A stretch of 26,080 bases of DNA from a virus. This document shows, one piece after another, positions 6,823 to 25,813 of the stretch. Below the pieces are notes generated by a model. It was given only the letters and a program-made list of their open reading frames with translations. It ran no database searches and was not told where the DNA came from. Position 1 is the first letter of the stretch; every line of letters starts with the position of its first letter. The position numbers and the translations under genes are program-made. The stretch is taken from positions 1 through 26,080 of the IMG/VR virus record IMGVR_UViG_3300046002_000752; one strand, given 5' to 3'.

Positions 6823-7355
6823 TTACAGTGACCTACGGCAAAGGCTTTAAGCTGTCGGAAACAGCAAGAGTCGCGTTTCGTGAAAAAATCATGGTCGTAC
6901 AAGATGGTATGCAAGCCCTGATTGACAGCGGCGCAATGCGGGCAACGCTTGAAGACTGCACGCTGAAACATTATTTTTCACCCAAAGATAAAAAATACGG
7001 CTGCTGCACTTACGCCCGCGAAATGATGATTCCAAAAGGAACATTGATCATTGGCAAAATTCATCGCCACCAGCATTTGAATTTTATTGCCAAGGGCAAA
7101 GTGATAGTGTTCACAGAGTTTGGTCAAAAGCACCTTGAAGGACCATGCACTTTTGTGTCTGAAGTAGGGCTAAAACGTGCGGTTTATGCTGAAGAAGATA
7201 CACTATGGACAACCGTACACATGACGCAGTTTCAATCGGAAGCAGAGTTAGATAAAATCGAGCAAGAAGTCATTTCCCCCTCATACGCTGAGATGGGCCT
7301 GATTGCTTCTGTTAATGATCTGCCTAAATTAACGGCACAAGGGGAAAAATTATGA
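6819..7355 (+). CDS. Cupin-like protein in the tail module
   Basis: 178 residues from ATG 6819, sharing ATGA with the fibre stop. The second half reads as a single-domain cupin: REMMIPKGTLIIGKIHRHQH (residues 67-86) with His82, His84 and His86, then KGKVIVFTE and, about 35 residues on, WTTVHMT with His134. These could bind a metal. The N-terminal 50 residues are helical (ETARVAFREKIMVVQDGMQA). Base composition is more AT-rich than in the surrounding tail genes. Cupin-like proteins occur beside tail genes in several podophages without a proven role. It could be a structural fibre-tip domain or an enzyme. Confidence 0.65.
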   Translation: MITVTYGKGFKLSETARVAFREKIMVVQDGMQALIDSGAMRATLEDCTLKHYFSPKDKKYGCCTYAREMMIPKGTLIIGKIHRHQHLNFIAKGKVIVFTEFGQKHLEGPCTFVSEVGLKRAVYAEEDTLWTTVHMTQFQSEAELDKIEQEVISPSYAEMGLIASVNDLPKLTAQGEKL

Positions 7356-8545
7356 CATGGGGATTTGTAGCTGTTGGCGCTGGTATGCTCGGCGGTGCGA
7401 TACTTTCATCAAATGCTGCTGAAAGCGCGGCTGAAACGCAGGCGGGGGCCGCCAAAGAAGCTGGCACAGCGTCGCTTGAAGGCTTGCAGTTGCAACTGGC
7501 GGCTGACAAAGAAGCGTTAGATAAAACGCTTGCGGCGCAACAAGCTGCTGCTGCGTCTGGTAATGCTGCTGCGGCTGCCGCGCTAGATAAGCAGTTAGCG
7601 CTGCAACGTGAACTTTACAACCGGCAAGTTGAGCTTCTAAGTCCGTACACAAAAGCTGGCGAAACCGGCCAGAATAGGCTGATGGACCTTTTGGGCCTAA
7701 GCGGCAATGTGAACGCGCCTGGCTACGGTTCTGCTGCGAAAAGTTTTTCTGCGGAAGACATGCAGCAAGACCCAGGCTATGCGTTTCGTTTGTCTGAAGG
7801 TCAAAAAGCAATTGAGCGCTCGACTGCTGCTCGGGGTGGCTTGCAGTCGGGTGCTGCACTCAAGGCCGCAGCGCGGTACGGCCAAGAGATGGGGTCGCAA
7901 GAGTACGCGAACGCATTTAATCGTTACCAGACCGAACGCCAGAGCCAATTGGGTAACTTGCAATCATTGCAATCAGTTGGTCAGGCTTCGGCTGCTGGTC
8001 AAGCTACTGCTGCGGGCAGTCTGTCGCAGGCAGGATCGCAAGCCTATGGCAACTACGGCGCAACGCAAGGCCAAATAGCCGCACAACAGGGTGCTGGCGC
8101 AACGGCGGCGTATGCTGGGTCTAGCCAAGCCCGCCAAAGCGCGTATGGCGCGAACACGGCCAACCAAATGGGTGCAATTACCGGCGCTGCTAATGCAATG
8201 TCTGCGGGTCAAATCGGTTCCGCTAATGCGTTTTCCAGTGCGATAGGCCAAGGCGTTGGCTTGTACGGCATGTACAACCAAAATCAGTTGGCACAACAAT
8301 ATATTAGCCGACTGCCCCCCGTTGCAGGTTCTGACGTTGCGATCAAAGAAAACATTCGCAAAATTGGTGTGTTGGAAAACGGCCTTAATGTGTACGAATA
8401 TGAGTACAAAGCCCCATACAAAGCCACATGGGGGCACGGCCAACAAATTGGCGTTATGGCGCAAGAAGTTGAGCAAATTATTCCTGAAGCTGTTAGTGTG
8501 CATCCTGATGGCTACAAGATGGTTGACTACTCAATGATCCACTAA
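7352..8545 (+). CDS. DNA ejection-like virion protein with C-terminal peptidase S74 chaperone domain
   Basis: 397 residues from ATG 7352, again an ATGA overlap. The N-terminus is a small hydrophobic Gly/Ala segment (FVAVGAGMLGGAILSSNAAE). Residues about 20-310 are Ala/Gln/Gly-rich helix with DPGYAFRLSEGQKAIERSTA and ARGGLQSGAALKAAARYGQE, a pattern seen in phage DNA transfer proteins. The last 71 residues are a peptidase S74 domain: Ser327-Asp, then Lys332 in IKENIRKIG, NGLNVYEYEY, IGVMAQEVEQIIPEAV and DGYKMVDYSM. The Ser-x4-Lys spacing fits the self-cleaving Ser/Lys dyad of this family. Its place matches P22 gp7. Related proteins are often labelled tail fibre because of S74 alone. Confidence 0.8.
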   Translation: MTWGFVAVGAGMLGGAILSSNAAESAAETQAGAAKEAGTASLEGLQLQLAADKEALDKTLAAQQAAAASGNAAAAAALDKQLALQRELYNRQVELLSPYTKAGETGQNRLMDLLGLSGNVNAPGYGSAAKSFSAEDMQQDPGYAFRLSEGQKAIERSTAARGGLQSGAALKAAARYGQEMGSQEYANAFNRYQTERQSQLGNLQSLQSVGQASAAGQATAAGSLSQAGSQAYGNYGATQGQIAAQQGAGATAAYAGSSQARQSAYGANTANQMGAITGAANAMSAGQIGSANAFSSAIGQGVGLYGMYNQNQLAQQYISRLPPVAGSDVAIKENIRKIGVLENGLNVYEYEYKAPYKATWGHGQQIGVMAQEVEQIIPEAVSVHPDGYKMVDYSMIH

Positions 8546-15345: not shown

Positions 15346-15536
15346 GCTTGTCCCCTTGCTCGGATGGCATCTGCCAAGTCCGTGTTGTTCTTTGCGTAGC
15401 TGTCAACCAATTCAAGAATCGCCCAACGCTCTGCTGCTGCGACAAGGGCGGCGAAGCGTTCAAGCTCAGGCCAGCCAGCTTGGTGAAAATTAATTCCGCA
15501 ATCCCTCGCCATTCGAATGATGTCTTCTTGTGTCAT
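15342..15536 (-). CDS. Small protein, MTxEDII family, copy A
   Basis: 64 residues from ATG 15536 (MTQEDIIRMARDCGINFHQA). A longer frame reaching 15641 has no support and would sit inside the neighbouring gene. The start shares ATGA with the upstream gene. The rest is a helical Ala/Glu-rich piece (LERFAALVAAAERWAILELV). It shares its first dozen residues with copy B, while the C-terminal halves have diverged. The function is unknown. Confidence 0.65.
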   Translation of the reverse strand: MTQEDIIRMARDCGINFHQAGWPELERFAALVAAAERWAILELVDSYAKNNTDLADAIRARGQA

Positions 15537-15787
15537 ATCAGCAAACTCCAAATCCAAACGCCAGTAAAGAACAACAGGATGCAAACCACGGCCAGCGCAC
15601 CCATGATGGCGGTCAGCATCACCGTGCCAACTGTCTGCCACGCCTCGGACACCGGCTCGATGTCAGCAGGGACGATGGGGTACGCCTTGACCTTCCTGAC
15701 AGTCGCCGTGTCGTAGGCGCAGTCCCACACGCACTCGGGCAAGTGCGGGCAGTCGATGCGGCCCGTGTCGCAATAGCGGCGCGTCAT
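15533..15787 (-). CDS. Small Cys-rich membrane protein
   Basis: 84 residues from ATG 15787, preceded by TTGGAGGCTGAC, a strong ribosome binding site. An in-frame TTG at 15799 would destroy it. The N-terminus has four Cys in CDTGRIDCPHLPECVWDC, possibly metal-binding or disulfide-bonded. Residues about 52-82 (QTVGTVMLTAIMGALAVVCI then LLFFTGVWIW) form a membrane span. A short linker (KAYPIVPADIEPVSEAW) separates the two. The role is unknown. Phage-encoded envelope modifiers or superinfection-exclusion proteins can look like this. Confidence 0.68.
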   Translation of the reverse strand: MTRRYCDTGRIDCPHLPECVWDCAYDTATVRKVKAYPIVPADIEPVSEAWQTVGTVMLTAIMGALAVVCILLFFTGVWIWSLLI

Positions 15788-15993
15788 GTCAGCCTCCAAA
15801 TGCGGACGCCCCCGTCTACAGTGCGGGTTGCAAACCTTACGCCCAGCTTGTTAGCCTCTCTGCGAAAGGTGTTCTGCTGGCTTTTGCTAAAGTCAGCGAC
15901 AAGAAAGCTGTCGCCCGCCTCCATCTGCGCCAGCGCCTCGGCGTACTCATTGCGGCGGCTTGGCAGCTTAATGCCCTTGTCGATTTTGATCAT
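15784..15993 (-). CDS. Small soluble phage protein
   Basis: 69 residues from ATG 15993 with GTGGAGGCAAC in front. The longer frame to 16071 is not supported. The protein starts MIKIDKGIKLPSRRNEYAEA and ends FATRTVDGGVRIWRLT. The middle has AQMEAGDSFLVADFSKSQQN and a helix with RREANKLGVRF. This arrangement, a start with KGIKLP and an end with GVRIWR, is a widespread small-protein type in phages that I take to be nucleic-acid-associated, but no function is proven. Confidence 0.66.
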   Translation of the reverse strand: MIKIDKGIKLPSRRNEYAEALAQMEAGDSFLVADFSKSQQNTFRREANKLGVRFATRTVDGGVRIWRLT

Positions 15994-16175
15994 GTTGCCT
16001 CCACTGGCGCTTGGTACGCCTTGAGGCGCTTGACTCGGCTCTTGTTGAAGGCCACCGATGCCTGCGCCCATTCCACCCCCGTTTCAGCTTTCAGAAGGGC
16101 CATTTCAGCCTCAGCCAGTTCGGCAGCAATGGCCTGCGCTGGTGTGATCACTTTGAAAATGTCTAGTATGTTCAT
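15990..16175 (-). CDS. Small helical protein
   Basis: 61 residues from ATG 16175 (MNILDIFKVITPAQAIAAEL) with GAGGAGCGCC upstream and an ATGA overlap downstream. Almost entirely Ala/Glu/Lys-rich helix, with AEAEMALLKAETGVEWAQAS in the middle. A plausible coiled-coil protein of unknown role. A longer in-frame start at 16187 lies inside the preceding gene and lacks a ribosome binding site. Confidence 0.62.
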   Translation of the reverse strand: MNILDIFKVITPAQAIAAELAEAEMALLKAETGVEWAQASVAFNKSRVKRLKAYQAPVEAT

Positions 16176-16183
16176 GGCGCTCC

Positions 16184-16318
16184 TCACTTCACAAGGACAT
16201 CAAAGTAAGCAAGCATTAGGACAACGCCTAAGCCGACCAAGATTACGGCTCCGATAAAACTCATCAACGAGCATCGAGCTTGATCCATGTTCTGCTGGGT
16301 AAAGTAAGTTTGTTTCAT
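16184..16318 (-). CDS. 44-residue single-span membrane protein
   Basis: ATG at 16318-16316, stop at 16186-16184. The protein starts MKQTYFTQQNMDQARCSLMS and continues as one hydrophobic span (FIGAVILVGLGVVLMLAYFD) and a short tail. GGAGAAAACGAA precedes the start. It shares ATGA with the upstream gene and is followed eight bases later by the next. Tiny one-span phage proteins of this kind can modulate host membrane functions, but nothing here shows which. Confidence 0.6.
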   Translation of the reverse strand: MKQTYFTQQNMDQARCSLMSFIGAVILVGLGVVLMLAYFDVLVK

Positions 16319-16458
16319 TTCGTTTTCTCCTTAGTTAATTTACTGACATATCCACGCACTTTGGCGGCGTGTTCTTGGGTGAGGTAAAACTCGACTCGGA
16401 CTAAGCCAAGCGCCTTTCGGCGCTGGCGCAGTGCTTGGACTCGTTGGGTTGGGGTCAT
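16315..16458 (-). CDS. 47-residue ribbon-helix-helix-like protein
   Basis: ATG at 16458-16456, sharing ATGA with both neighbours. The sequence starts MTPTQRVQALRQRRKALGLV and continues RVEFYLTQEHAAKVRGYV, ending in a Lys-rich tail. The pattern of a basic helix, a short beta strand (RVEFYL) and another helix fits small Arc/MetJ-like DNA-binding proteins found in phages. It may be a repressor or DNA-binding accessory protein of the early operon. Confidence 0.62.
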   Translation of the reverse strand: MTPTQRVQALRQRRKALGLVRVEFYLTQEHAAKVRGYVSKLTKEKTK

Positions 16459-16622
16459 GCTAGTGGAAGCATCTTGTAGGCAGCGCGTGCTTCAGCATTG
16501 AATTGGCGTGTTGATGACTCGCTAAAGTCAAAACCAGAAACGCTCATTTCGTTTTGAACGCGCAAAGCAGTCTCAAGATCAATTTTGAGCAGTGCTGCAA
16601 TTTCTCGTGTGTAAATGTTCAT
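16455..16622 (-). CDS. Small protein of unknown function
   Basis: 55 residues from ATG 16622 (MNIYTREIAALLKIDLETAL). The preceding GGAGAAAACGAC is a near copy of the leader of the 44-residue membrane protein gene. The longer frame to 16694 has no such site. The protein is helical with a polar centre (RVQNEMSVSGFDFSESSTRQ). The N-terminal TREIAALLKID could be a small DNA-binding helix pair, but this is uncertain. A 55-base gap to the VRR-NUC gene holds nothing clear apart from the leader. Confidence 0.6.
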   Translation of the reverse strand: MNIYTREIAALLKIDLETALRVQNEMSVSGFDFSESSTRQFNAEARAAYKMLPLA

Positions 16623-16677
16623 GTCGTTTTCTCCGTTGTGTTGTTGATGATTGAATTCTAACACTGTTTCCGGTAAC

Positions 16678-17028
16678 TCATAAACTAGGGACAAACCCTA
16701 ACACCATTTCTTTAGCCTGATCAGCCCCCTTTGCCACAAAACAGGTGTAGCCACAACCCTCCAGATAGGCAATCCAGTCCTTCTGCTCGGCGCTTACGCT
16801 ACCGCCCTTGGTGCGCTTCATCTCCACCCACAAGCGCCAGTCTGGAATAAACAGGTCAGGCACGCCAGGCGATACGCCCTCGACCTTCAAGCGCCCAGCC
16901 GTAGCCATGCTTCTAGCACCGCCATTTGGGATAGCAAATATACGCACGCCCTTGTAGCCTTGGCGAAACCAGCGCACAAACTCGCGTTGCTCCTCATGCT
17001 CGGTTGGTATGCGGTCTAGAACGGACAT
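16678..17028 (-). CDS. VRR-NUC domain nuclease
   Basis: 116 residues from ATG 17028, after GGGAGGTTCA. The motif order is that of stand-alone phage VRR-NUC enzymes of the PD-(D/E)xK superfamily: Glu12/Glu13-Gln (HEEQREFVRWF), IPNGGARS (33-40), GVSPGVPDLF with Asp58, WVEMKR with Glu69 and Lys71, and Gln82 in AEQKDW. Glu13, Asp58, Glu69, Lys71 and Gln82 are the likely active site. Viral VRR-NUC proteins cut branched DNA structures, so it may resolve replication or recombination intermediates. It sits downstream of a helicase gene, a frequent pairing. Confidence 0.88.
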   Translation of the reverse strand: MSVLDRIPTEHEEQREFVRWFRQGYKGVRIFAIPNGGARSMATAGRLKVEGVSPGVPDLFIPDWRLWVEMKRTKGGSVSAEQKDWIAYLEGCGYTCFVAKGADQAKEMVLGFVPSL

Positions 17029-17207
17029 TGAACCTCCCACTTGTCGCACTCGCCCACGGCATTGGCAAATTCTGGTGGCGGTGGGATAAAGAACTCAACG
17101 CACAAGCCATCAACGCCGTAATGCTCACAGGTGTGGCAGCACCTTGGTGGGCCTGCTTTGTCCCACTCGCGCCACTGGATCAAAAACTCTGGCTCTGGTT
17201 GTCTCAT
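17016..17207 (-). CDS. Small Cys-rich, probably zinc-binding protein
   Basis: 63 residues from ATG 17207 (MRQPEPEFLIQWREWDKAGP), with GGGGGATGAA in front. It shares ATGA with the preceding mini-gene and overlaps the VRR-NUC start by 13 bases. Cys residues lie in RCCHTCEHYG, GLCVEF, GECDKW and near the end, enough for one zinc site. PPPPEFAN separates them. Small proteins with this CxxC-HYG and ECDKW pattern recur in phages of proteobacteria. No role is known. Confidence 0.66.
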   Translation of the reverse strand: MRQPEPEFLIQWREWDKAGPPRCCHTCEHYGVDGLCVEFFIPPPPEFANAVGECDKWEVQCPF

Positions 17208-17359
17208 TTCATCCCCCGTTGTTGTGTAAATTTCATCCAGCACTTGCCGCAATACCACTTGGCCCTGACATCAATGCCGCCCTTCGGGTCAGCGTCCAGC
17301 TTGCAAACATCGCAATGCTTGAGCTTTTGAGCGTTGCTCATTTGTTCTTCAACAGTCAT
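17204..17359 (-). CDS. 51-residue zinc-ribbon mini-protein
   Basis: ATG at 17359-17357, stop at 17206-17204, ATGA at both ends. After a helical start (MTVEEQMSNAQKLK) come HCDVCKLDADP and, about 15 residues on, WYCGKCWMKF, so two CxxC knuckles form a zinc ribbon. It lies directly after the helicase, which has a similar CxxC...CxxC insertion. It may be a small partner of the replication or recombination proteins (inference). Confidence 0.64.
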   Translation of the reverse strand: MTVEEQMSNAQKLKHCDVCKLDADPKGGIDVRAKWYCGKCWMKFTQQRGMK

Positions 17360-18954
17360 GCCCACCGCCTACGCATTACGCGAAAAAACTTGCCATCTTT
17401 TTTAAATTCAATGCTGCTCGGTGGTTGCGTTTGATTCATGTTGGCTGCCATCTCCTCAAGCGACTGCACATTAAGGCCACCTGGCTTGATCTGAGCCCGT
17501 TCTGCTATGGTTACGAGCTTCTGCAAAGCGCTCTGGCCCGCATAACCATCATGCGTAACGGCCAAGTACTCGGTCACCGCCGGATCACTCAAGCCGCCGT
17601 AGTAAGTCACCGCCAGCATTTCCTTGCCCGATGCCTTGCTTATGTGCTTGCGCCATGTCCAGCTTGTTACATCCAGATCACGCCCCTCCAGCCCCATGAT
17701 GTCGTCATCGTGCAGCTTGAGTTTCTTTGGCTCTGGGGCTGGAAAGGCATGACCACAGGCCGAGCAAACAGACGCTGATATGGCGCACAACTCGCCGCAC
17801 TCATCGCAGACCTTCACTGGCGCTTCGCCATTGCCATCACCACCCTTCTTTGGGGGCTGGACGGCGGTGATCGGCCCGTGGCTTGACACCACGCCAGCAA
17901 AGTCCAGCACCAGGCAGTCGGCCTTGCCAGTGTTCGGCCTCATGCCTCGACCTGCTTGTTGCAGATATAAGCCTGGGGACATAGTTGGTCTAGCCATCAC
18001 CAGCAGATCAATGGCTGGATGGTCAAACCCGACATTCAAACATCCGACCTGCGTAATTGCTGTAATCTTTCCAGACTTAAAATCGGCAATAGATTGCTCT
18101 CGATCTTTTTTTGCCATGTCACCAGTCACGGAAACGGCAGACACTCCACGACTTAAAAGAATGTCACGCAAATGCTCGGCGTGCTTTACACCCGTTGCAA
18201 AAAACATCCAACTTTTGCGGCCATCAGAACGATTGATGACCTCATTAATCATGGCATCGTTATTGTCTGATGTGTCAACAGCCGCTTGAAGTTCAGACTC
18301 AATAAAATCACCTCCTCGTTTGTGAACGCTGCTGGTGTCAAATTTAAAGCTGGTTTGCTTGCTGCGTAATGTCGCAAGATAGCCCTTAAAAATAAGTTCT
18401 TCAATGCTTATTGGCTCAATGAGTGCATCAAAGATCGCTGGCTTATCTGTAATCATTCCGTGGCCAAGACGAAATGGGCTAGCTGTAAAACCAATGACGC
18501 GCATGGATGGATTTATTTCCATAAAGTCATTGATGATTTTGCGATAGCTTCCTTCATCTTTATGAGAAATGTCATGTGCCTCATCCACCAGTAAAAGATC
18601 GCAATGACCAATCTTCTTTGTGACACGAACAATTGAAAGAGGCCCGCCAATGGTGATGGGTTCTCCCAATTGCTTTTTACCTGCACTTGCTGAGTAAATG
18701 CCCATTGGAGCACCTGGCCAAATCGCGCGTAGCTTTTCGGCGTTTTGGTTTATCAATTCAACGCTGCGCGTAAGCATCACGATATGCGTCTCCGGCCATT
18801 CCGTAATTGCTTTGCGACACAGTTCGGCGATAACAATGCTTTTTCCGCTGCCAGTCGGCAACACAATACATGGATGACCTGTGTTTTTTCCAAGCCAATC
18901 GTAAAGCATTGATAAAGCACGCGACTGGTATTCCCTCAGCTCTATTTTTTCCAT
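17356..18954 (-). CDS. SF2 DEAD/DEAH-box helicase
   Basis: 532 residues. Helicase motifs in order: Q-like LREYQSRAL (6-14), Walker A PTGSGKS (33-39), motif Ia-like MLTRSVEL, DEAH (124-127), TASP (157-160), a second RecA domain with FFATGVKHAE, VGCLNVGFDHP, and motif VI QQAGRGMR (332-339). A zinc knuckle with Cys383, 386, 397 and 400 follows, and then a C-terminal extension of about 120 residues. It is an ATP-driven DNA translocase similar to phage T5/UvsW-like and RadD-like helicases, likely working in replication or repair. The start at 18954 lies inside the end of the HNH gene. From about 18030 upstream its DNA is markedly AT-richer than the rest of the gene. Confidence 0.9.
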   Translation of the reverse strand: MEKIELREYQSRALSMLYDWLGKNTGHPCIVLPTGSGKSIVIAELCRKAITEWPETHIVMLTRSVELINQNAEKLRAIWPGAPMGIYSASAGKKQLGEPITIGGPLSIVRVTKKIGHCDLLLVDEAHDISHKDEGSYRKIINDFMEINPSMRVIGFTASPFRLGHGMITDKPAIFDALIEPISIEELIFKGYLATLRSKQTSFKFDTSSVHKRGGDFIESELQAAVDTSDNNDAMINEVINRSDGRKSWMFFATGVKHAEHLRDILLSRGVSAVSVTGDMAKKDREQSIADFKSGKITAITQVGCLNVGFDHPAIDLLVMARPTMSPGLYLQQAGRGMRPNTGKADCLVLDFAGVVSSHGPITAVQPPKKGGDGNGEAPVKVCDECGELCAISASVCSACGHAFPAPEPKKLKLHDDDIMGLEGRDLDVTSWTWRKHISKASGKEMLAVTYYGGLSDPAVTEYLAVTHDGYAGQSALQKLVTIAERAQIKPGGLNVQSLEEMAANMNQTQPPSSIEFKKDGKFFRVMRRRWA

Positions 18955-19616
18955 GTAACGCCTCTTCTAACGTTATTTATCGTTGTTCTTGTAACGCCAA
19001 ATTTTTCAGCTAATTCCCTACCGTTTAAATTAGAAACAAATATTTCTTTAACATTTTCTTCGGTCAACTTTGAGCGTCCGTTTTTCTCTCCAACGTAATG
19101 GCGTTTTTTTTGTAGTGCGTCTTGCGCGTTGTCTTTTGTTGTGCCAACAAACAAATGGTCTGGATTGACGCATCCAGGGTTATCGCAGTGATGGCAAACA
19201 ATCAATCCATCAGGAATTAATCCCTTGTAAATTTCATAAGAAAGCCGATGCGCTCTTGTGTTTTTTCGGTCACCAGGCAATACGCCATACCCGTCTTTGT
19301 CTGTGTGTGCCCTCCACTGCCAGCAGCCGCTATCAAGTTTTGCAAAACGAGAAAAAAAACGATCATGCAAAGTTCCAGACTGACGAAGCCTCATGGCTTT
19401 CATGGCGATTGAGTTTTTTTCCGCTTTTAAGCAACCACATGATTTACTTCCTCCACTTCGAATAGTCATGCCATAAACCACCTGCTTTGTTCCGCATTCG
19501 CAAATGCAATTCCAGAATTTTCCCGTCTGCTTTGTTTCCGCAGGTTTTGTTGCCTCTGACAACACCGTCCAACGGTTGTACTTAAGTCCGACCATTTCAA
19601 TTGTTGGTTTGCCCAT
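18942..19616 (-). CDS. HNH endonuclease, likely free-standing homing type
   Basis: 224 residues from ATG 19616, with AAGGAAATTGTTATT in front. The longer frame to 19652 is less supported. The N-terminal domain has Cys37, 39, 41, 60 and 62 (WNCICECGTK, then SKSCGCL), probably zinc-binding. The centre is an HNH_3 nuclease: AHRLSYEIYKG with His123, VCHHCDNPGCVNPDHLFVG with His142/143 and Asn151-His154. Residues 184-224 form a helix-turn-helix (GRELAEKFGVTRTTINNV). This domain set is typical of mobile phage HNH endonucleases. The gene is about 35-40 percent G+C against about 60-65 percent in the methylase gene. A TACAAT box lies on the minus strand at 19656-19651, so it could have its own weak promoter. 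Confidence 0.9.
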   Translation of the reverse strand: MGKPTIEMVGLKYNRWTVLSEATKPAETKQTGKFWNCICECGTKQVVYGMTIRSGGSKSCGCLKAEKNSIAMKAMRLRQSGTLHDRFFSRFAKLDSGCWQWRAHTDKDGYGVLPGDRKNTRAHRLSYEIYKGLIPDGLIVCHHCDNPGCVNPDHLFVGTTKDNAQDALQKKRHYVGEKNGRSKLTEENVKEIFVSNLNGRELAEKFGVTRTTINNVRRGVTWKK

Positions 19617-19701
19617 AATAACAATTTCCTTACTTGGTGAGAATATTGTCATTGTAGCGCATATAGCTGGTCTATGGTGCGTTGTTGGTAGTCACGGAGC
19701 A

Positions 19702-20673
19702 TTAAAACAACTCCAAAGAAAATTGATCGTCAGACATCTTTGCAACACAATGCGGGCTGCACCAGATCGTTTCACTGGCGCTGTTGGCCACAGCCTCGTC
19801 GGTAATGGCGTAGCCTTTGCGAGCAGTCCATTTGCGCTCAGTCCAGCCTTTTGCCAGCAAAGCGTCATGCTCCCCGGCATGGCCGCAAATCACAATGCGC
19901 AGCTTGGGGTTGTCGCCGTTGGTTGCGCACCATGTGCCCACCTCTGCGGGCAAGTTGGTTCCCACCCCTCCGGCTGCATAGTCCATCTCACCTTTAAAGT
20001 ATGGCGGGTCGAGAAAAACAGCAGTCAGTCCATGGCGCACGGTCACCGAGTCCTTGACCACCCGCGACCAATCGCCGCACGCTACGCGGACATCACGCAG
20101 GCGGTCATGCAAGGAGGCAAACCATGTGTAAATAAACTGGCCTCGCCCGGCGCTCAGGTGCGGGAGTTGACGGTTAATGCCTTGCCCGGCGCTCAGGTGC
20201 GGGAGTTGACGGCGATCAACCAGCTTTTCACCGTCATGAATCCACGGGCCTTCACCACCGCACCAGCCAGAACCAATCCAATTGCACGCGCCCCAACACC
20301 ACCACCCCGCCATCTTTGCGTCAAAGTAATCAGGATCAGCGTGCAGTTTTTCGGTTAAACCTTGCACATGGCGCACCAGCCATGAATGACGGGCAAACAA
20401 GTCGTTTTCATTGCAGGGCCAGTCGGCATGATGCGCCACAGCCTCAGAGTCGGCGTGGATGGCTCGCCAAAAGTTGGCCACAAAGCCGTCAAAGTCGTTA
20501 ATCGTTTCAATGCGCTTGCCTTCCGGTGCACCCAGCAACATGGCCGCGCTTCCCGCAAAAGGTTCAACGTAGTTTTGCACATCACCAAAGGCGTGCCAAA
20601 CCAGCTCGCACGCGCCAGATTTCCCGCCAAACCACGGAAATGGCGCTGCTAATGTTCCAGAATTAGTTTTCAC
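19702..20673 (-). CDS. DNA adenine N6-methyltransferase, D12 class
   Basis: 323 residues from GTG 20673, which overlaps the nuclease stop as GTGA. The D12-class motifs are visible: PFPWFGGKS (11-19) for AdoMet contact, VEPFAGSAAMLLG (36-48) for motif I, NDFD (59-62), and the catalytic DPPY in FLDPPYFKG (222-225). It transfers a methyl group to adenine and could protect phage DNA from restriction or mark it. Between the motifs, residues 155-180 hold two copies of RQLPHLSAG 13 residues apart, encoded by 29-base identical DNA repeats. No restriction gene lies next to it, so it is probably solitary. Confidence 0.88.
   Translation of the reverse strand: MKTNSGTLAAPFPWFGGKSGACELVWHAFGDVQNYVEPFAGSAAMLLGAPEGKRIETINDFDGFVANFWRAIHADSEAVAHHADWPCNENDLFARHSWLVRHVQGLTEKLHADPDYFDAKMAGWWCWGACNWIGSGWCGGEGPWIHDGEKLVDRRQLPHLSAGQGINRQLPHLSAGRGQFIYTWFASLHDRLRDVRVACGDWSRVVKDSVTVRHGLTAVFLDPPYFKGEMDYAAGGVGTNLPAEVGTWCATNGDNPKLRIVICGHAGEHDALLAKGWTERKWTARKGYAITDEAVANSASETIWCSPHCVAKMSDDQFSLELF
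20145..20212 (-). repeat. Tandem 39-base repeat (29 bases identical) inside the methyltransferase gene
   Basis: On the + strand the first copy runs from 20145 to 20173 and the second from 20184 to 20212. Each begins GCCCGGCGCTCAGGTG and ends GAGTTGACGG, with a ten-base spacer that completes a 39-base period. In frame this gives two 13-residue units (RQLPHLSAGQGIN and RQLPHLSAGRGQF). The period is a multiple of three, so copy number can change without breaking the gene. Confidence 0.9.
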
Positions 20674-21695
20674 CCCACCACCCTTCCATCAAACTGCTTA
20701 CGCATCTCAGCAATCAGCGGATCACCGCTACCGCAAGCGTCAGCGTTAGCCAGCAATTCTGTGGATGAGTACACGCCCTCTTGCTCTGGGTCGCCGTTAG
20801 CCAATGTCACGCCATTGATCTCATACACGGCAGTGAATTCGTCCGGCCCGTCCTTGCGCGGCCAAGGCACTAAGTCAGGGTGAAGCACATGCGACTCGCA
20901 ACCCTTGTGCTGTGCGTCCACTGGGATCACATCGTCCCACTTGGCGCAGTGCCAAGTTGAATCAGGCATTGGCGTGGCGTTGGCGCATGTGCGGCAATTG
21001 ACATGTTTGGTGGTCTTGGTTTCGTGGCAGAACTTGTACGCATCGCAGAACTTGCACTGATACCAACTTGGGTCAGTGCTGATCGGCTGGGGCATACGTT
21101 CGGCCAATGCAATGTAATGACCTCGGCGCACCGCCTTCTCTGCGACATCCTTGTCGTACTTGACGCGCTCAGTATGTATGCGGTCATCGTCCTTGCAGAT
21201 AGCAACGTACAGCGCACGATCAATGCCAGTGCCATGCATGTAAACCTGCATTTGGACAAGGTGTTCGGGCTTGGACTTCTCCACGCCGTCCTTGGCTAAC
21301 GCATCAAACGATTTCTTGCTGTGCGTCTTAAACTCGGCCACATGCTTGGCCTTTGGTGCCTCGGGCACGCCCTTGTCAATGATGGCGTCTAGCGATCCAG
21401 AGACATGACTGCCAAAGTCAACACGGTGCTGCGCTGACACCTTGCGGACATCCAACCCAATGGCACGCAAGTCACTGATGATGGTGGCTTCCTCGTTCTG
21501 GCCCCTACGAAACAGGCGCAAGATACGGCCAGAAAACTCAGGCTGCACCGCCCACCGAAACGACAGCCAAAGCCACCTGTCACAGACATGGCCTAACGTA
21601 CTAGCACCAAGGTGTGGTCGTGGTTTTTCAGGCTTTGCTTCATGCTGCTTGTCAATTAACGCTTGAATGGTATTATCGGGTTGGGGAATTTTCAT
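20670..21695 (-). CDS. PD-(D/E)xK exonuclease, RecB/Cas4-like with an apparent Fe-S cluster
   Basis: 341 residues from ATG 21695, after AAGGAGAGAACAA. The longer frame to 21746 crosses the intergenic hairpin. Active-site motifs: Glu69/Glu70, Asp103 in SGSLDAIID, Glu121-x-Lys123 in VAEFKTH, and Gln148-x3-Tyr152 in VQMQVYMHG. Cys38 (GHVCDRWLW) and the C-x2-C-x5-C of residues 214, 217 and 223 (CKFCDAYKFC) match the cluster-binding layout of AddB, Dna2 and Cas4. A second Cys set (234, 237, 250, 266) follows and may bind zinc. It is likely a DNA end-resecting nuclease acting with the recombinase upstream in the operon. Confidence 0.82.
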   Translation of the reverse strand: MKIPQPDNTIQALIDKQHEAKPEKPRPHLGASTLGHVCDRWLWLSFRWAVQPEFSGRILRLFRRGQNEEATIISDLRAIGLDVRKVSAQHRVDFGSHVSGSLDAIIDKGVPEAPKAKHVAEFKTHSKKSFDALAKDGVEKSKPEHLVQMQVYMHGTGIDRALYVAICKDDDRIHTERVKYDKDVAEKAVRRGHYIALAERMPQPISTDPSWYQCKFCDAYKFCHETKTTKHVNCRTCANATPMPDSTWHCAKWDDVIPVDAQHKGCESHVLHPDLVPWPRKDGPDEFTAVYEINGVTLANGDPEQEGVYSSTELLANADACGSGDPLIAEMRKQFDGRVVG

Positions 21696-21720
21696 TTGTT
21701 CTCTCCTTGAAGTAGATTTA

Positions 21721-21752
21721 GCCCCGACCTTAACCAGTCGGGGCATTTTTTT
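21721..21752 (+). terminator. Strong hairpin with T-run, oriented against the operon
   Basis: GCCCCGAC (21721-21728) and GTCGGGGC (21737-21744) form a perfect eight-base stem with an eight-base loop. It is followed on the + strand by A and seven T (21746-21752). Read on the + strand this is a textbook intrinsic terminator. Read on the - strand, the operon direction, the T-run becomes an A-run before the stem, so it should not stop the operon itself. Confidence 0.72.
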
Positions 21753-21754
21753 GC

Positions 21755-22249
21755 TTACTTTTTAGCCCAAGGTGGCGCAGCCTTTCCACTGGCTGCCGCT
21801 GGTGCTGACGCAGGCATAACGCTGGATGCCGCAGGCGCTACGCTGCCGGACACTGACTTAAAACCCCGCACTTCGTTGCTTGCGCCATATTGCGCGTCTT
21901 GCTTGATCTCCAGCTTGATGGCAATCTGACCACCGATCAGTTGGTCGGTGTCGGCAACCTTTGCCAGCCCAATAGCACGCATGATCTCGCCCAACTGCTG
22001 GCGTCCTATCTCTTCGGCCTTAGGGTTAGCGTTCTTGATGATTAAGTTGCCGAACACCACACGACCCTGATGGCTTGGGCCGGTGATGTCGTAGCGCAGC
22101 TTGATGTACTGGCCGTTACCAGCCTTGGTATCTTTAAGTTCAGCTTGGGAGATGGTGCATGTGTACCAACCAGCAGGCAGCGGCTCAAAGCTGCCTGTGT
22201 TACCAACTGGAAGTTCGTTGACATCGAAAGATTCGGTGAGAAAAGCCAT
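21755..22249 (-). CDS. DUF669 family protein, probable single-stranded DNA-binding protein
   Basis: 164 residues. The core is MAFLTESFDVNELPVGNTGS, then LPAGWYTCTISQAELKDTKA, GNGQYIKLRYDITGP and RVVFGNLIIKNANPKAEEIG. This is the DUF669 signature, a beta-rich OB-like domain found beside phage recombinases. The tail from about residue 136 is an Ala/Ser/Pro linker ending in PPWAKK, unlike the acidic tip of bacterial SSB. It would coat single strands for the Sak4-like ATPase. It lies five bases after the upstream gene. Its TAA is followed by the + oriented hairpin. Confidence 0.82.
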   Translation of the reverse strand: MAFLTESFDVNELPVGNTGSFEPLPAGWYTCTISQAELKDTKAGNGQYIKLRYDITGPSHQGRVVFGNLIIKNANPKAEEIGRQQLGEIMRAIGLAKVADTDQLIGGQIAIKLEIKQDAQYGASNEVRGFKSVSGSVAPAASSVMPASAPAAASGKAAPPWAKK

Positions 22250-22254
22250 GATAT

Positions 22255-22641
22255 TTATTCCTTAACAGTGATTTTGAAAGATGGACGGCCAGGCTTGGCC
22301 GTAATTGCACCAGCCAAATGCTTGGTGATGGACTCGTCTGCTGATTTCCAGAGCGTTAGGTTTAGCTCTGGCTTCCAGCGGAACAATGTAGCCAAATGCT
22401 CGGTCAACCCTGATTCGGTCGCCAACATCTGCAACTTCTCTGAATCAACCTTGCGGTCAATCCGGCCAGAAATTTTGACAACAAAACCTTCAGGCTCTGT
22501 TGTCTCAGTAGACTCAAATGCATCAGGTAGCGCCAACTCCTTGACGATCAAATCTTCAATTTTCCGGCGTTCAATGACCGCATGTTCTTCAGCAGTCTTG
22601 TGGCGCAGCCAATCTGCGCTCAATGCTTTGAGGTCGCTCAT
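22255..22641 (-). CDS. Phage protein beside the recombination genes, unknown function
   Basis: 128 residues, starting MSDLKALSADWLRHKTAEEH. The first half is a charged helix (IERRKIEDLIVKELALPDAF). The second half (FVVKISGRIDRKVDSEKLQM, and WKPELNLTLWKSADESI) is mixed alpha/beta and ends SFKITVKE. It shares ATGA with the preceding small gene. Proteins of this length and layout commonly lie between a DUF669 gene and the recombinase in siphophages and podophages. A helper in recombination is a fair guess. Confidence 0.7.
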   Translation of the reverse strand: MSDLKALSADWLRHKTAEEHAVIERRKIEDLIVKELALPDAFESTETTEPEGFVVKISGRIDRKVDSEKLQMLATESGLTEHLATLFRWKPELNLTLWKSADESITKHLAGAITAKPGRPSFKITVKE

Positions 22642-22832
22642 TCGTCACGCTCCTTTAACATGGCGTCAGCTATGCGGTAAGAAACAAGCGCAGCATCTTC
22701 CTCATTAAGTACAGAGTCAGCGCTGACCGTTGCAGCAATCAACACTTGCATGGCCTTGGCAGCAAAGTAATCGCGCAAGGTCATGCCATCGTGCCCGTTG
22801 TAGGGCATCGGAAATGCTTGCAAGTACTTCAT
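22638..22832 (-). CDS. Small phage protein
   Basis: 64 residues, starting MKYLQAFPMPYNGHDGMTLR and continuing DYFAAKAMQVLIAATVSA, then a helix rich in Ala and Asp. Both ends are ATGA overlaps, so it is translationally linked to the recombinase gene before it and the 128-residue gene after it. The MTLRDYFAAKAM motif is frequent in small phage proteins without a known role. Confidence 0.68.
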   Translation of the reverse strand: MKYLQAFPMPYNGHDGMTLRDYFAAKAMQVLIAATVSADSVLNEEDAALVSYRIADAMLKERDE

Positions 22833-23506
22833 GCTTTGCCGCCGATCTTGTCAATGATTGCACCAAGGTCAGGTGCTTCCCACGCGCCGAGTTTGCCGGA
22901 GCGATCTTTGGCTAGCCAAAGGCCGTCTGAATCGCACATCAATGCACGCTGCGTTACGCCCTCGGCATCGCGCTCAACGCGCAGCGCCAGCACTTCGTCA
23001 AAGAAGTAGGGCAAGCCTTGTGTAAGACTCTTGCCGGGCATACCAGGGTTGTACAACATCTTGCCCATCTCGTCTGTGGACTTCTCCAGCTTGGCGCTCA
23101 TAAACACATGCTTGTTGGGCAAGTCGCGGAATGCACGGATCAACTCTTGCATGGTGCTATTCATCTCGCCGTATGCTGCGCGGCCATCTTTAGACTTTTT
23201 CATCTCGTAATGCAAGACTACTTCAGCCACCTCGCTGATTGAGTCCAACGCAACAGACTGGTAGCCTTCAGCCTCTTTGCTGTCCTTGCACCAAGCAAAA
23301 GCCTCGCGCAAATCATCCATTGAAGCAATCTCAATGTAGGGCAAGTCAGCGTCCTGAATAGACAACAAGCCACCCTCGGCAGACAATACGATCACATTGG
23401 GCAACGTCTTGACCAGCGTGGTCTTGCCTGCACCGGCTTGCCCGTACACCAACAACTTCACACCATTAGCAGACAAGCTGCCCGTAGACTTCAAATTGAT
23501 AGCCAT
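22829..23506 (-). CDS. RecA-like ATPase, Sak4-type recombinase (putative)
   Basis: 225 residues from ATG 23506 with GGAGAGCCAA in front. Walker A is GQAGAGKTT (22-30) and Walker B is SVALDSI (84-90) with Asp88. Further family-like blocks are PYIEIASMDDLREAF and LPNKHVFMSAKLEK. The size and motifs fit the AAA_24 group, which includes the Sak4 single-strand recombinases of phages. These pair homologous strands with the help of an SSB. It is the first gene of the long minus-strand operon, 119 bases from the divergent HTH gene. Another RecA-like role, such as a terminase-unrelated ATPase, cannot be excluded. Confidence 0.8.
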   Translation of the reverse strand: MAINLKSTGSLSANGVKLLVYGQAGAGKTTLVKTLPNVIVLSAEGGLLSIQDADLPYIEIASMDDLREAFAWCKDSKEAEGYQSVALDSISEVAEVVLHYEMKKSKDGRAAYGEMNSTMQELIRAFRDLPNKHVFMSAKLEKSTDEMGKMLYNPGMPGKSLTQGLPYFFDEVLALRVERDAEGVTQRALMCDSDGLWLAKDRSGKLGAWEAPDLGAIIDKIGGKA

Positions 23507-23625
23507 TTGGCTCTCCTTTTTCACCCACTTCAGGAAATCTGTTCTGGGTGTGCTTGCACTGTATCACACAATTTAGGGTAAGATTCGGCCAGCGCAACAA
23601 ATTAATTTAACAAAGGAAAAAGAAC
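23507..23625. promoter_or_regulatory. Divergent intergenic region with possible operator and promoter
   Basis: 119 bases between two genes reading apart, one for recombination and one for an HTH regulator. An imperfect palindrome spans 23548-23569: GTGTG and CACAC arms around a 12-base centre. For the + strand, TTGCAC (23554-23559) and TAAGAT (23579-23584), 19 bases apart, are a weak promoter candidate overlapping the palindrome. No good sigma-70 pair is visible for the minus strand. The layout resembles a phage early switch, with the HTH protein as the likely regulator. Confidence 0.5.
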
Positions 23626-23811
23626 ATGATGACACTTGAGCAAATACGAGAAGCTCTATCCGACCGAATGCCAAGCAAGGTGGCCGAGGCCACTGGTGTC
23701 CACTACAACACCATCAGGCAGATGCGCGACAACCCCAATGCGAACCCCACGCACAAGGTGATGATGGCCCTGTCAACCTATCTTGAAAGTCGGAAGGTGA
23801 CGCATGGCTGA
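23626..23811 (+). CDS. Small HTH regulator, Cro-like
   Basis: 61 residues from ATG 23626 after AAAGGAAAAAGAAC. A second ATG follows directly at 23629. Residues about 17-37 (SKVAEATGVHYNTIRQMRDN) form a helix-turn-helix, followed by PNANPTHKVMMALSTYLE, the usual third-helix and wing part of compact phage repressor or Cro-like proteins. It likely binds the divergent region just upstream and controls the minus operon, its own transcript, or both. It overlaps the primase-helicase gene by eight bases, so the two are co-transcribed. Confidence 0.8.
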   Translation: MMTLEQIREALSDRMPSKVAEATGVHYNTIRQMRDNPNANPTHKVMMALSTYLESRKVTHG

Positions 23812-25813
23812 CCTCTCAAAAGTCCTTGGTGGCCCGTGGGCACCAGCACCAGAAAAGCGGGTTGACCCGCCTGAAGTGCAACTTATTGACGCCATGCGTG
23901 CTGCGGGGCTGGAGCCGCCAGATCACATTGAGATGGACGGGAAGATTCACCGCTTTCGCTCGGGCACGAAGGGTGCGCCTGGCCACGGCGACAAGCCGGG
24001 CTGGTATTTGGTCTTTGGTGATGGCATCCCAGCGGGGCGCTTTGGCTGCTGGCGTGCAGGTTTTGAATCTAGTTTCCGCGCTGATGTAGGGCGCAAGCTC
24101 ACCCAGACCGAGGAGATGTCCCACGCCAAGCGTCTGGCCGAGGCCAAAGCCTTGCGGGACGCAGCCATTGAGCGCCAGCATCAAGTAGCTAGCGAGACAG
24201 TCGAAAAGATATGGACAGGCGCACAGGCAGCGCTCCCTGACCACCCCTACCTTGCCAAAAAGGGCATCGGCGTTCATGGCGCTCGTGCCACGGGCGATGG
24301 CCGCTTGGTAGTCCCCCTGTACGATGCAGATGGCACATTGTCTAGCCTCCAGTACATAGACCACGAAGGCGGCAAGTTGTACCACGCTGGCGGGCAGACC
24401 GGCGGCAAGTTTTGGGTGGTAGGCTCATCAGATGAGCTAGGCACGCTATATGTGGCCGAAGGCTTTGCCACCGCTGCTACCATTTTTGAGGCTACAAACC
24501 GGCCTTGCGTAGTGGCCTACAGTGCCAGCAACCTAGTGCCGGTGACTGGCAGTTTGCGAGAAAAGCACGGCATTATGCAAGACATTGTGATTGTGGCTGA
24601 CCATGACCAATCCGGCGTTGGTCAACGTTATGCAGAACAAGCATCAGCCAAGTACGGCGCACGCATGGTGATGCCTCCGATTCTCGGTGATGCCAACGAT
24701 TATGCCCAAGCGGGGCACAATTTGGCCGCACTGCTCATGCCACCAGCAAATGATTGGCTCATCCCCGCAGACGAGTTTTCAGCCCAACCCAGCCCCATTT
24801 CGTGGCTGGTCAAGCGCTGGATTCAGTCCCAAGCCTTGGTGATGGTGCATGGCCCATCAGGCGGCGGCAAGACCTTTGTGGTGCTGGATTGGTGCTTACG
24901 CATGGCAAGCGGCATCCCAGACTGGTGCGGCCACAAGGTACGCCAAGGCAATGTGGTCTATTTGGCCGGTGAAGGCCACCACGGCCTGCGAGGCAGGGTA
25001 GCAGCATGGAAGCACCACAACAAGGCCGGAAAGCTCAATATGTGGCTTTCCAAGGATGGCTGCGACCTCAACACCCCCATCGGCTACCTCAAGGTGGTGG
25101 AACAGGTCAGGATGCTCAAAGACAGGCCAAGCGTGATAGTGGTTGATACCCTGCACCGATTCTTAGCAGGTGACGAGAACAGCGCCCAAGACGCCAAGAC
25201 CATGTTAGACGCTTGCAACGCCCTGATGATGGAGTTTGACTGCTCAGTCATCCTTGTCCACCACACAGGCGTGTCAGACGAAGCACAGCACCGCGCCCGA
25301 GGCTCAAGCGCATGGCGTGGCGCTTTGGACATTGAGATCAGTATCGTTCCAGCCAAAGATGACCAGCCCATGCAGATCGTGCAGCGCAAGTCCAAGGATG
25401 CTGAAATGGCCCAGACGGTTTACGCCGAACTGCGCCAAGTGACCATCCCAGCTTGGTACGACGAGGACAACCAGCCAGTCACCAGCGCAGTGTTAGTTGA
25501 AGCCCAAGCCCCCGCTATCATCAAAAAAGACAGCAAAATTGAGAGCCACCGCAAAACATTTGAGAACGCATGGTGGGGCACAGGCGCTGAAGTGCGCGAG
25601 GGTTTACCCTACATTAGCAGGTCGGCACTTAAGGACAAGCTGGCTCAAGATGGGCGCAAACCACGCACCATTGAGAACGATTTGAGTCCGTCATATCCGG
25701 AAAAAATGATCGGTGCGCTTATCCTTTCGGAGATCATTAGCCCCATTGAACATGGCTGGATGGTGGTTGATGAGGTGCAATCGAGTGCCATGCTGGTGCG
25801 AAAAGGTGGGTAA
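23804..25813 (+). CDS. Primase-helicase with Toprim and RepA-type ATPase domains
   Basis: 669 residues. Residues about 30-100 form an N-terminal domain with GWYLVFGDGIPAGRFGCWR and no CHC2 zinc finger. The Toprim domain follows at about 212-300: VAEGFATAAT with Glu219 and VIVADHDQSGVG with Asp266 and Asp268. Residues about 335-520 are a RepA/RecA-like ATPase: Walker A HGPSGGGKT (349-357), LAGEGHHGLRGRV, Walker B VIVVDTLHR (444-452), ILVHHTG, and GSSAWRGALD. The C-terminal 150 residues look like a winged-helix region. It would prime and unwind at the phage origin. The start overlaps the HTH gene by eight bases. Confidence 0.9.
   Translation: MADLSKVLGGPWAPAPEKRVDPPEVQLIDAMRAAGLEPPDHIEMDGKIHRFRSGTKGAPGHGDKPGWYLVFGDGIPAGRFGCWRAGFESSFRADVGRKLTQTEEMSHAKRLAEAKALRDAAIERQHQVASETVEKIWTGAQAALPDHPYLAKKGIGVHGARATGDGRLVVPLYDADGTLSSLQYIDHEGGKLYHAGGQTGGKFWVVGSSDELGTLYVAEGFATAATIFEATNRPCVVAYSASNLVPVTGSLREKHGIMQDIVIVADHDQSGVGQRYAEQASAKYGARMVMPPILGDANDYAQAGHNLAALLMPPANDWLIPADEFSAQPSPISWLVKRWIQSQALVMVHGPSGGGKTFVVLDWCLRMASGIPDWCGHKVRQGNVVYLAGEGHHGLRGRVAAWKHHNKAGKLNMWLSKDGCDLNTPIGYLKVVEQVRMLKDRPSVIVVDTLHRFLAGDENSAQDAKTMLDACNALMMEFDCSVILVHHTGVSDEAQHRARGSSAWRGALDIEISIVPAKDDQPMQIVQRKSKDAEMAQTVYAELRQVTIPAWYDEDNQPVTSAVLVEAQAPAIIKKDSKIESHRKTFENAWWGTGAEVREGLPYISRSALKDKLAQDGRKPRTIENDLSPSYPEKMIGALILSEIISPIEHGWMVVDEVQSSAMLVRKGG

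Follow-up and report, generated by a model that had tools for sequence, protein, structure and literature searches.

Introduction

Lynch et al. proposed in 2012 that an exonuclease and a Sak4-like recombinase together may form a recombination system conserved in some phages, and they discuss the exonuclease and Sak4 of KL1, PA73 and BcepGomr (PMC3483164). The gene tables of phages DLP1 and DLP2 list a helicase, a RecB exonuclease, a DUF669 protein and RecA in this order (PMC4559383). In this study, we compared such systems with an operon of the virus record IMGVR_UViG_3300046002_000752, the whole of whose 26,080 bases (hereafter, the window) belongs to a phage whose coat protein is of the P22 type (PF11651). 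On the minus strand, this operon encodes, in order, a Sak4-like ATPase, a protein of 64 amino acids (orf64), a DUF7173 protein, a DUF669 protein that is presumed to be a single-strand DNA binding protein (SSB), a Cas4-like exonuclease, a D12 methylase, an HNH endonuclease and an SF2 helicase; neighbouring genes overlap or are separated by fewer than 60 bases. We consider it probable that this cassette is a recombination operon, of a kind that is known, widespread and already annotated in phages.

The closest described system is the Septimatrevirus-type module (PA73, KL1 and DLP1), which is composed of DUF7173, RecA/Sak4, DUF669, a RecB exonuclease and a DEAD helicase; DLP1 has the same five families on one strand. 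The two differ in that the exonucleases are only about 30% identical, the DUF7173 gene precedes Sak4 in DLP1 whereas it follows it in the window, and the window has an extra open reading frame (ORF) of 64 amino acids as well as methylase and HNH genes before the helicase. A homologue of the window Sak4-like protein is the KL1 recombinase (E 4e-30), which is 91% identical to ORF032 of PA73, a protein that is recombinase-active in E. coli (Lopes et al., cited in PMC3483164). A second point of comparison is phage HK620, in which Sak4 also stands beside an SSB of the DUF669 type (PMC5928155). However, the HK620 Sak4 and SSB belong to PHROGs other than those of the window proteins (2872 and 743), and Abc2 is annotated next to the SSB where the window cassette has its exonuclease.

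Conservation of the cassette among phages

Searching 50,697 phage records with tblastn found the exonuclease in 409, Sak4 in 466-470 and the DUF669 protein in 246 of them, and many exonuclease records among the matches listed were labelled as a Cas4-domain exonuclease, with a Sak4-like gene nearby. A first-pass annotation, which was made from the letters of the window, had called the pairing of a Cas4-like nuclease with Sak4 under-explored; given these records and a description in print since 2012, this is not supported in that form. The Sak4 tallies include 39-42 Streptococcus and 13 Gordonia records, and neither genus is among the ten commonest names in the exonuclease tally; Sak4 also occurs without a detected exonuclease.

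For a closer analysis of presence, order, strand and co-occurrence, 26 phages were chosen for diversity, not at random, from 120 (60 best and 60 spread) of the 409 matches. Their exonucleases are 29-78% identical to that of the window, and the stretches around them were searched with profiles. A helicase homologue lies downstream of the exonuclease in all 26 phages, while Sak4 and the SSB accompany it in 25 each and DUF7173 in 22. The exception for Sak4 is Xanthomonas phage Pfeifenkraut (L166), in which the Sak4 match is at the far end of the record, and that for the SSB is locus L162. The strict order Sak4-SSB-exonuclease-helicase was found in 20 of 23 phages and in 16 of 23 further loci; this count requires 4.5 kb upstream and 2.5 kb downstream, which leaves 23 of the 26 phages and 23 of the 52 further loci. 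First-round profiles (E 1e-5), whose source loci included the 26 phages, gave identical cassette counts, and only the further loci, which were fetched after these profiles had been built, are independent of them. Over three more rounds, the helicase profile drifted and matched an ORF overlapping the HK620 terminase gene, a match that the first-round profiles remove.

These counts also change the outline of the module. The first-pass annotation had placed a compact set of three genes (Sak4-like ATPase, DUF669 protein and nuclease) at 20670-23506. The gene positions and the layout on one strand of one operon agree with our analysis, and the interval holds all three genes; however, they are not adjacent, as orf64 and DUF7173 separate Sak4 from the SSB, and the helicase falls outside the interval. 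Both the helicase and DUF7173 had been overlooked, and their occurrence in 26 and 22 of the 26 phages, respectively, rules out the three genes as a closed unit. The position of DUF7173 varies: among 22 phages, 21 with both it and Sak4 in this count and one more, it comes after Sak4 in five, just upstream of it in eight and more than 400 nt upstream in nine. The gene for orf64 was found in 60 of 168 sources, including the window and overlapping loci of one contig. The intervals between the SSB and the exonuclease and between the exonuclease and the helicase are variable as well and hold genes of the methylase, deaminase, DksA-like zinc finger, HNH or NUMOD type; the methylase and HNH genes of the window therefore look like passengers.

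The Sak4-like ATPase

The identity of the ATPase is supported by its match to phrog_124 (7.1e-58) and by the profile of 33 related sequences, which matches the solved Sak4 of phage 52A (PDB 8rc5, explained in PMC11846896) with an E of 1.2e-9 over profile positions 5-207. The protein is short and single-domain, and the residues of its Walker motifs, G27, K28 and D88, are invariant across the 33 sequences. Grouping with non-recombinase AAA proteins had been named in advance as the outcome that would speak against a Sak4-like reading. By its PHROG profile, the ATPase belongs with Sak4 instead, although the only Pfam family that it is assigned to is AAA_24 (4.9e-30).

The exonuclease and its two sets of cysteines

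The exonuclease matches phrog_1990 over nearly the whole profile (residues 23-294 of the longer ORF against 14-290 of 290), in agreement with the Cas4-like identity proposed at first. We place its start at an ATG behind AAGGAGAG; the mechanical ORF begins 51 nt further upstream, where there is no good ribosome site, and the residue numbering of the first-pass annotation fits the start behind AAGGAGAG. All of the residues named there, i.e., D103, E121, K123, Q148, Y152, C38 and C214-x2-C217-x5-C223, are present, so that the window protein has a PD-(D/E)XK motif with Q-xxx-Y and the four cysteines of a putative iron-sulphur (Fe-S) staple. A PD-(D/E)XK core with a C...CxxCxxxxxC staple is what it shares with Cas4, AddB and Dna2.

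With the AlphaFold2 model of the exonuclease (mean pLDDT 90.6), VIA-align gave a Z of 11.8 against LHK-Exo (3.9 Å, 174 aligned), 10.9 against lambda exonuclease (3.4 Å, 181 aligned), 10.4 against Cas4 SSO0001 (4.8 Å, 189 aligned) and 7.1 against Dna2; neighbouring rows differ by less than 1 Z, so that there is no clear winner, and as the rows span mostly residues 21-260, the fold beyond about 260, which largely includes the second cysteine set described below, is barely covered. Foldseek ranked Cas4 SSO0001 first (3.9e-7) and LHK-Exo third (1.2e-6), and sequence searches of the PDB with the exonuclease profile and with single proteins yielded nothing useful. The catalytic core is thus predicted to be of the kind that is common to lambda-type exonucleases and Cas4, about equally close to both, and a difference from Red, which had been suggested earlier, is therefore not established by the core. 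The likeness to lambda Red and LHK-Exo lies in this predicted core fold and in the logic of an exonuclease with an annealing protein. In contrast to them, the window exonuclease adds the putative Fe-S staple and a second cysteine set, its annealing partner is a P-loop Sak4 rather than a Redbeta-like or Rad52-like protein, so that the cassette falls outside the two-component definition of lambda Red, and the operon also carries an SSB and a RadD-like helicase.

The second set, C234, C237, C250 and C266, had also been reported in the first-pass annotation, in which a lack of cysteine conservation was to count against the proposal. All eight cysteines were identical in the 26 phages, and all eight form invariant columns in an alignment (A1) of 48 sequences whose identity to the window is as low as 32%. 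Conservation of the catalytic residues is slightly less strict across the same 26 phages (D103 in 26, E121 in 24, K123 in 25, Q148 in 25 and Y152 in 23). Furthermore, the second set is identical in 123 of 123 viral rows, among which close relatives predominate and some contigs contribute overlapping loci; C38 falls in a gap in two of these rows. ORFs whose kept part was shorter than 200 amino acids had been dropped from this set, and 150 rows, the window included, were kept. The second set is thus as invariant as the staple, and its occurrence in 26/26 phages and 48/48 aligned sequences rules it out as a local decoration.

A contrast set of 12 rows was composed of Burkholderia phage AH2 and its relatives (11 rows) and Stenotrophomonas phage AXL3; it contains some redundancy, as L221 and L222 are the same phage and L225 and L226 look alike, and the exonuclease profile also picks up one of its loci, L231, weakly (4.2e-5; 7.3e-4 with first-round profiles). 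The AH2 exonuclease belongs to the Cas4 superfamily (PMC3483164) and lies next to no gene annotated as Sak4. A CxxC-C staple is kept in each of the 11 AH2-type rows, and a second CxxC set is absent from all of them and from AXL3; within the fetched stretches, the only ones searched, the profiles for Sak4, the SSB, DUF7173 and the helicase found no match in any of the 12. Being present in 26/26 phages and absent from 12/12 contrast rows, the second set marks the subfamily that was seen with Sak4 here. Our limited literature searches, which covered titles and the openings of abstracts, found no description of it or of the tryptophan tip that is discussed below.

The spacing of the second set, CxxC...C...C, is ribbon-like and is kept in all 26 phages, which suggests that it may bind zinc. 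It is also conceivable, albeit unlikely, that it holds no metal of its own and instead rearranges with the first set around one cluster or acts as a redox or disulfide element. The retained ribbon-like spacing speaks against this, as do the AH2-type exonucleases, which keep the staple alone, and the Cas4 proteins, for which four conserved cysteines are described (PMC5704561).

A different role altogether, in which the Cas4-like protein would act against the host by degrading its DNA or interfering with CRISPR adaptation, has been discussed for the Cas4-like proteins of other phages (PMC7504290, PMC5704561). We regard such a role as improbable here because the exonuclease is ordered with Sak4, the SSB and the RadD-like helicase in 20/23 phage stretches, the second cysteine set is missing from the 12 contrast rows, in which a Cas4-like protein occurs without detected Sak4, and the curated CRISPR Cas4 model TIGR00372 reaches 22 of the 65 bits required, so that the protein is not a CRISPR Cas4 by this score.

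The DUF669 protein and its tryptophan tip

The DUF669 protein clears the curated cut-off of PF05037 (48.2 bits versus 21) and matches an SSB family of PHROG, which bears out its earlier description as SSB-like; a sequence search of the PDB with its profile gave a single match, MspI, at E 1.8. The DUF669 protein that stands beside sak4 in HK620 was purified, bound single-stranded DNA and stimulated Sak4 via its last six residues, and up to 80% of sak4 genes are reported to adjoin an ssb gene (PMC5928155). The same source gives the end of the HK620 SSB as NDYPPF and that of E. coli SSB as DDDIPF. Whereas the HK620 tip is acidic, the window protein ends in a conserved tryptophan tip, PPWAKK. Most of its relatives likewise have a low-complexity linker that is followed by PPWAKK, PPWAQ, APWGQR or a similar end, and W161 is at least 90% conserved in alignment A4 (55 DUF669 sequences). 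A tryptophan occurs within the last 12 residues in 76 of 83 sequences at less than 90% identity, 33 of 39 at less than 60% and 22 of 25 at less than 50%, compared to a chance expectation of 0.16-0.17 per sequence; the sequences counted are related to each other, and tryptophan frequency alone underlies the chance value. The sequences without it are L191, L193, L213, L214, L216, L218 and L219, of which L218 and L219 have a PW motif followed by a bacterial-type DDDIPF or DEDTPF end. By analogy with HK620, the tryptophan tip may recruit Sak4.

The RadD-like helicase and DUF7173

Residues 6-387 of the helicase match the structure of E. coli RadD (6jde), the best match among solved proteins, and one phage record, that of Synechococcus phage Yong-L2-223, already carries the RadD label on its homologue of this gene. 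RadD speeds up strand exchange by RecA (PMC8887467). By the curated cut-off, the window protein is a relative and not an equivalog. The model of the DUF7173 protein (pLDDT 91.2, pTM 0.58) consists of a long helix and small helices; its fold search found no PDB match at E<=0.001, and a PDB sequence search with the profile was also fruitless. HkaM of HK620 was ruled out as a DUF7173 protein, as it belongs to phrog_1723 and no DUF7173 profile match was found in locus L168.

Proposed function of the cassette

We infer the following biochemical steps, as well as any role for DUF7173, from these observations. The exonuclease would resect double-strand ends of the phage DNA, with a 5'-to-3' polarity that is to be expected by analogy with lambda exonuclease and Cas4. 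Lambda exonuclease works with this polarity. The DUF669 protein would coat the 3' strand and, as in HK620, its low-complexity C-terminal tail would recruit Sak4, which would anneal homologous strands with ATP, while the RadD-like protein would act on joined or branched intermediates. Together, these activities would serve the repair or concatenation of replicating phage genomes.

Several observations weigh against a recombination operon of this kind. RecA matches the Sak4 profile only weakly per repeat (E about 5-8), and the curated RadD model NF053632 scores 253 of 720 bits, below its cut-off. The HK620 proteins, on which the analogy draws, are distant: hhalign gave a probability of 7% for its Sak4 and 34% for its SSB (a single HK620 sequence in each case), and the first-round cassette profiles matched none of its proteins, although phrog_124 cross-matches the HK620 Sak4 at 1.9e-5. 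Additionally, gene neighbourhood is not proof of joint action, and DNA polymerase genes lie near the cassette in several phages, which makes a role in replication possible as well. It is quite possible, with a chance somewhat short of even, that the genes serve mainly phage DNA replication, i.e., fork restart, concatemer formation or the processing of branched DNA, with recombination as a by-product. In line with this, a divergent gene for a primase-helicase adjoins the cassette at 23804, several relatives have the polymerase genes downstream, in some of them together with a clamp, and Sak4 was reported to be required for phage replication in Staphylococcus aureus (PMC5499656). On the other hand, the HK620 Sak4 has recombineering and annealing activity (PMC5928155), and the replication and recombination readings overlap.

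Within the recombination operon that we favour, a more specific arrangement may be put forward tentatively, and we hold it to be rather doubtful: a self-contained end-repair machine, in which a two-metal (Fe-S and zinc) exonuclease would act with an SSB whose tryptophan tip, standing where bacterial SSBs have an acidic one, would dock Sak4, the exonuclease and the RadD-like motor on phage DNA and ignore the host SSB-binding proteins. The double ends of the L218 and L219 proteins look as if they served both sets of partners.

Gene coordinates and further observations

The features of the cassette are listed in Table 1.

Table 1. Position of the cassette genes and of motifs within them in the window
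Feature	Position	Strand	Details
Sak4-like RecA-core ATPase	22829-23506	minus	225 amino acids from ATG behind AAGGAGAG; Walker A GQAGAGKTT
orf64, 64 amino acids	22638-22832	minus	overlaps the sak4 and DUF7173 genes; phrog_2201 3e-16
DUF7173 protein, 128 amino acids	22255-22641	minus	PF23791 2.3e-18; phrog_2480 8e-27
DUF669 protein, presumed SSB, 164 amino acids	21755-22249	minus	PF05037 1.6e-12; phrog_2300 4.6e-47; phrog_6015 SSB 1.6e-26
PPWAKK C-terminal tip of the DUF669 protein	21758-21775	minus	W161 conservation
Hairpin between SSB stop and exonuclease ribosome site	21721-21744	minus	z -3.98
Cas4-like exonuclease, 341 amino acids, PD-(D/E)XK core	20670-21695	minus	phrog_1990 1.7e-96
Staple C214-x2-C217-x5-C223	21027-21056	minus	fourth staple cysteine C38 at 21582-21584
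Second cysteine set C234-x2-C237-x12-C250-x15-C266	20898-20996	minus	residue conservation
D12-class adenine methylase gene	19702-20673	minus	PF02086 4.2e-07; phrog_56 3e-19
HNH endonuclease gene	18942-19652	minus	HNH_3 9.7e-12; phrog_1872 4.2e-32
RadD-like SF2 helicase, 532 amino acids	17356-18954	minus	phrog_16 4.7e-94; E. coli RadD 6jde E 7.9e-49

Promoter signals in 15500-24500 were ruled out, as six sites were found against 5.9 expected. Downstream of the helicase, at 16678-17049, lies a gene for a VRR-NUC protein, a possible Holliday junction resolvase; VRR-NUC also follows the helicase in L145 and L146. An ORF of 80 amino acids at 17016-17258 has a CxxC-x8-C-x15-C spacing that resembles the CxxC-x12-C-x15-C of the second set of the exonuclease, and its only match is a weak one to phrog_31018. 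A direct repeat at 20140-20213 in the methylase gene encodes RQLPHLSAGxG twice in tandem, and a DNA-ejection-type protein (phrog_598) with a terminal S74 intramolecular chaperone domain is encoded at 7352-8545.

The hairpin just ahead of the ribosome site of the exonuclease is GC-rich and follows a run of A; in 200 shuffles, no sequence folded equally well, and in relatives the letters of its stem change together, as judged by eye. In eight loci (L013, L014, L017, L028, L031, L034, L075 and L211), a compact structured RNA was found between the SSB stop and the exonuclease start, and the same RNA occurs in other contexts (from L233 onward). It is laid out as an outer stem, GA-AAGCGGATGCTG, a variable loop, CAGAC or CAGT, GCAGCGAGTA and the other side of the outer stem, often followed by ACC, and its pattern is present in at least 120 stretches of viral contigs. 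The search pattern did not cover the outer stem, for which 534 of 595 cells pair, compared to a mean of 355 and a maximum of 387 with shuffled partners, with GC, CG, TA and AT pairs among 119 distinct elements, some of them closely related. Judged from these sequences, the compact RNA is covarying. Rfam gave no match at gathering scores in 12 sources, seven of which have the compact RNA, and none at E<=5 around one copy; the best match below threshold around L031 (34.3 of 50 bits) is on the other strand, over a neighbouring hairpin. With a covariance model of the compact RNA, a search of 36 sources yielded a single copy, that of L211, and no copy in the window. The copy at L211:1904-1973 has a tRNA-Arg(tcg), as called by ARAGORN, in its variable domain.

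Significance for phage recombination

Phages with Sak4 are common, and the window copy is one example among many. A compact set that brings its own resection nuclease, SSB and RadD-like partner would be a candidate recombineering kit for bacteria in which Red works poorly. Moreover, the strict second cysteine set and the tryptophan tip offer two simple, testable predictions on how such a system may recognise its DNA and its partners.

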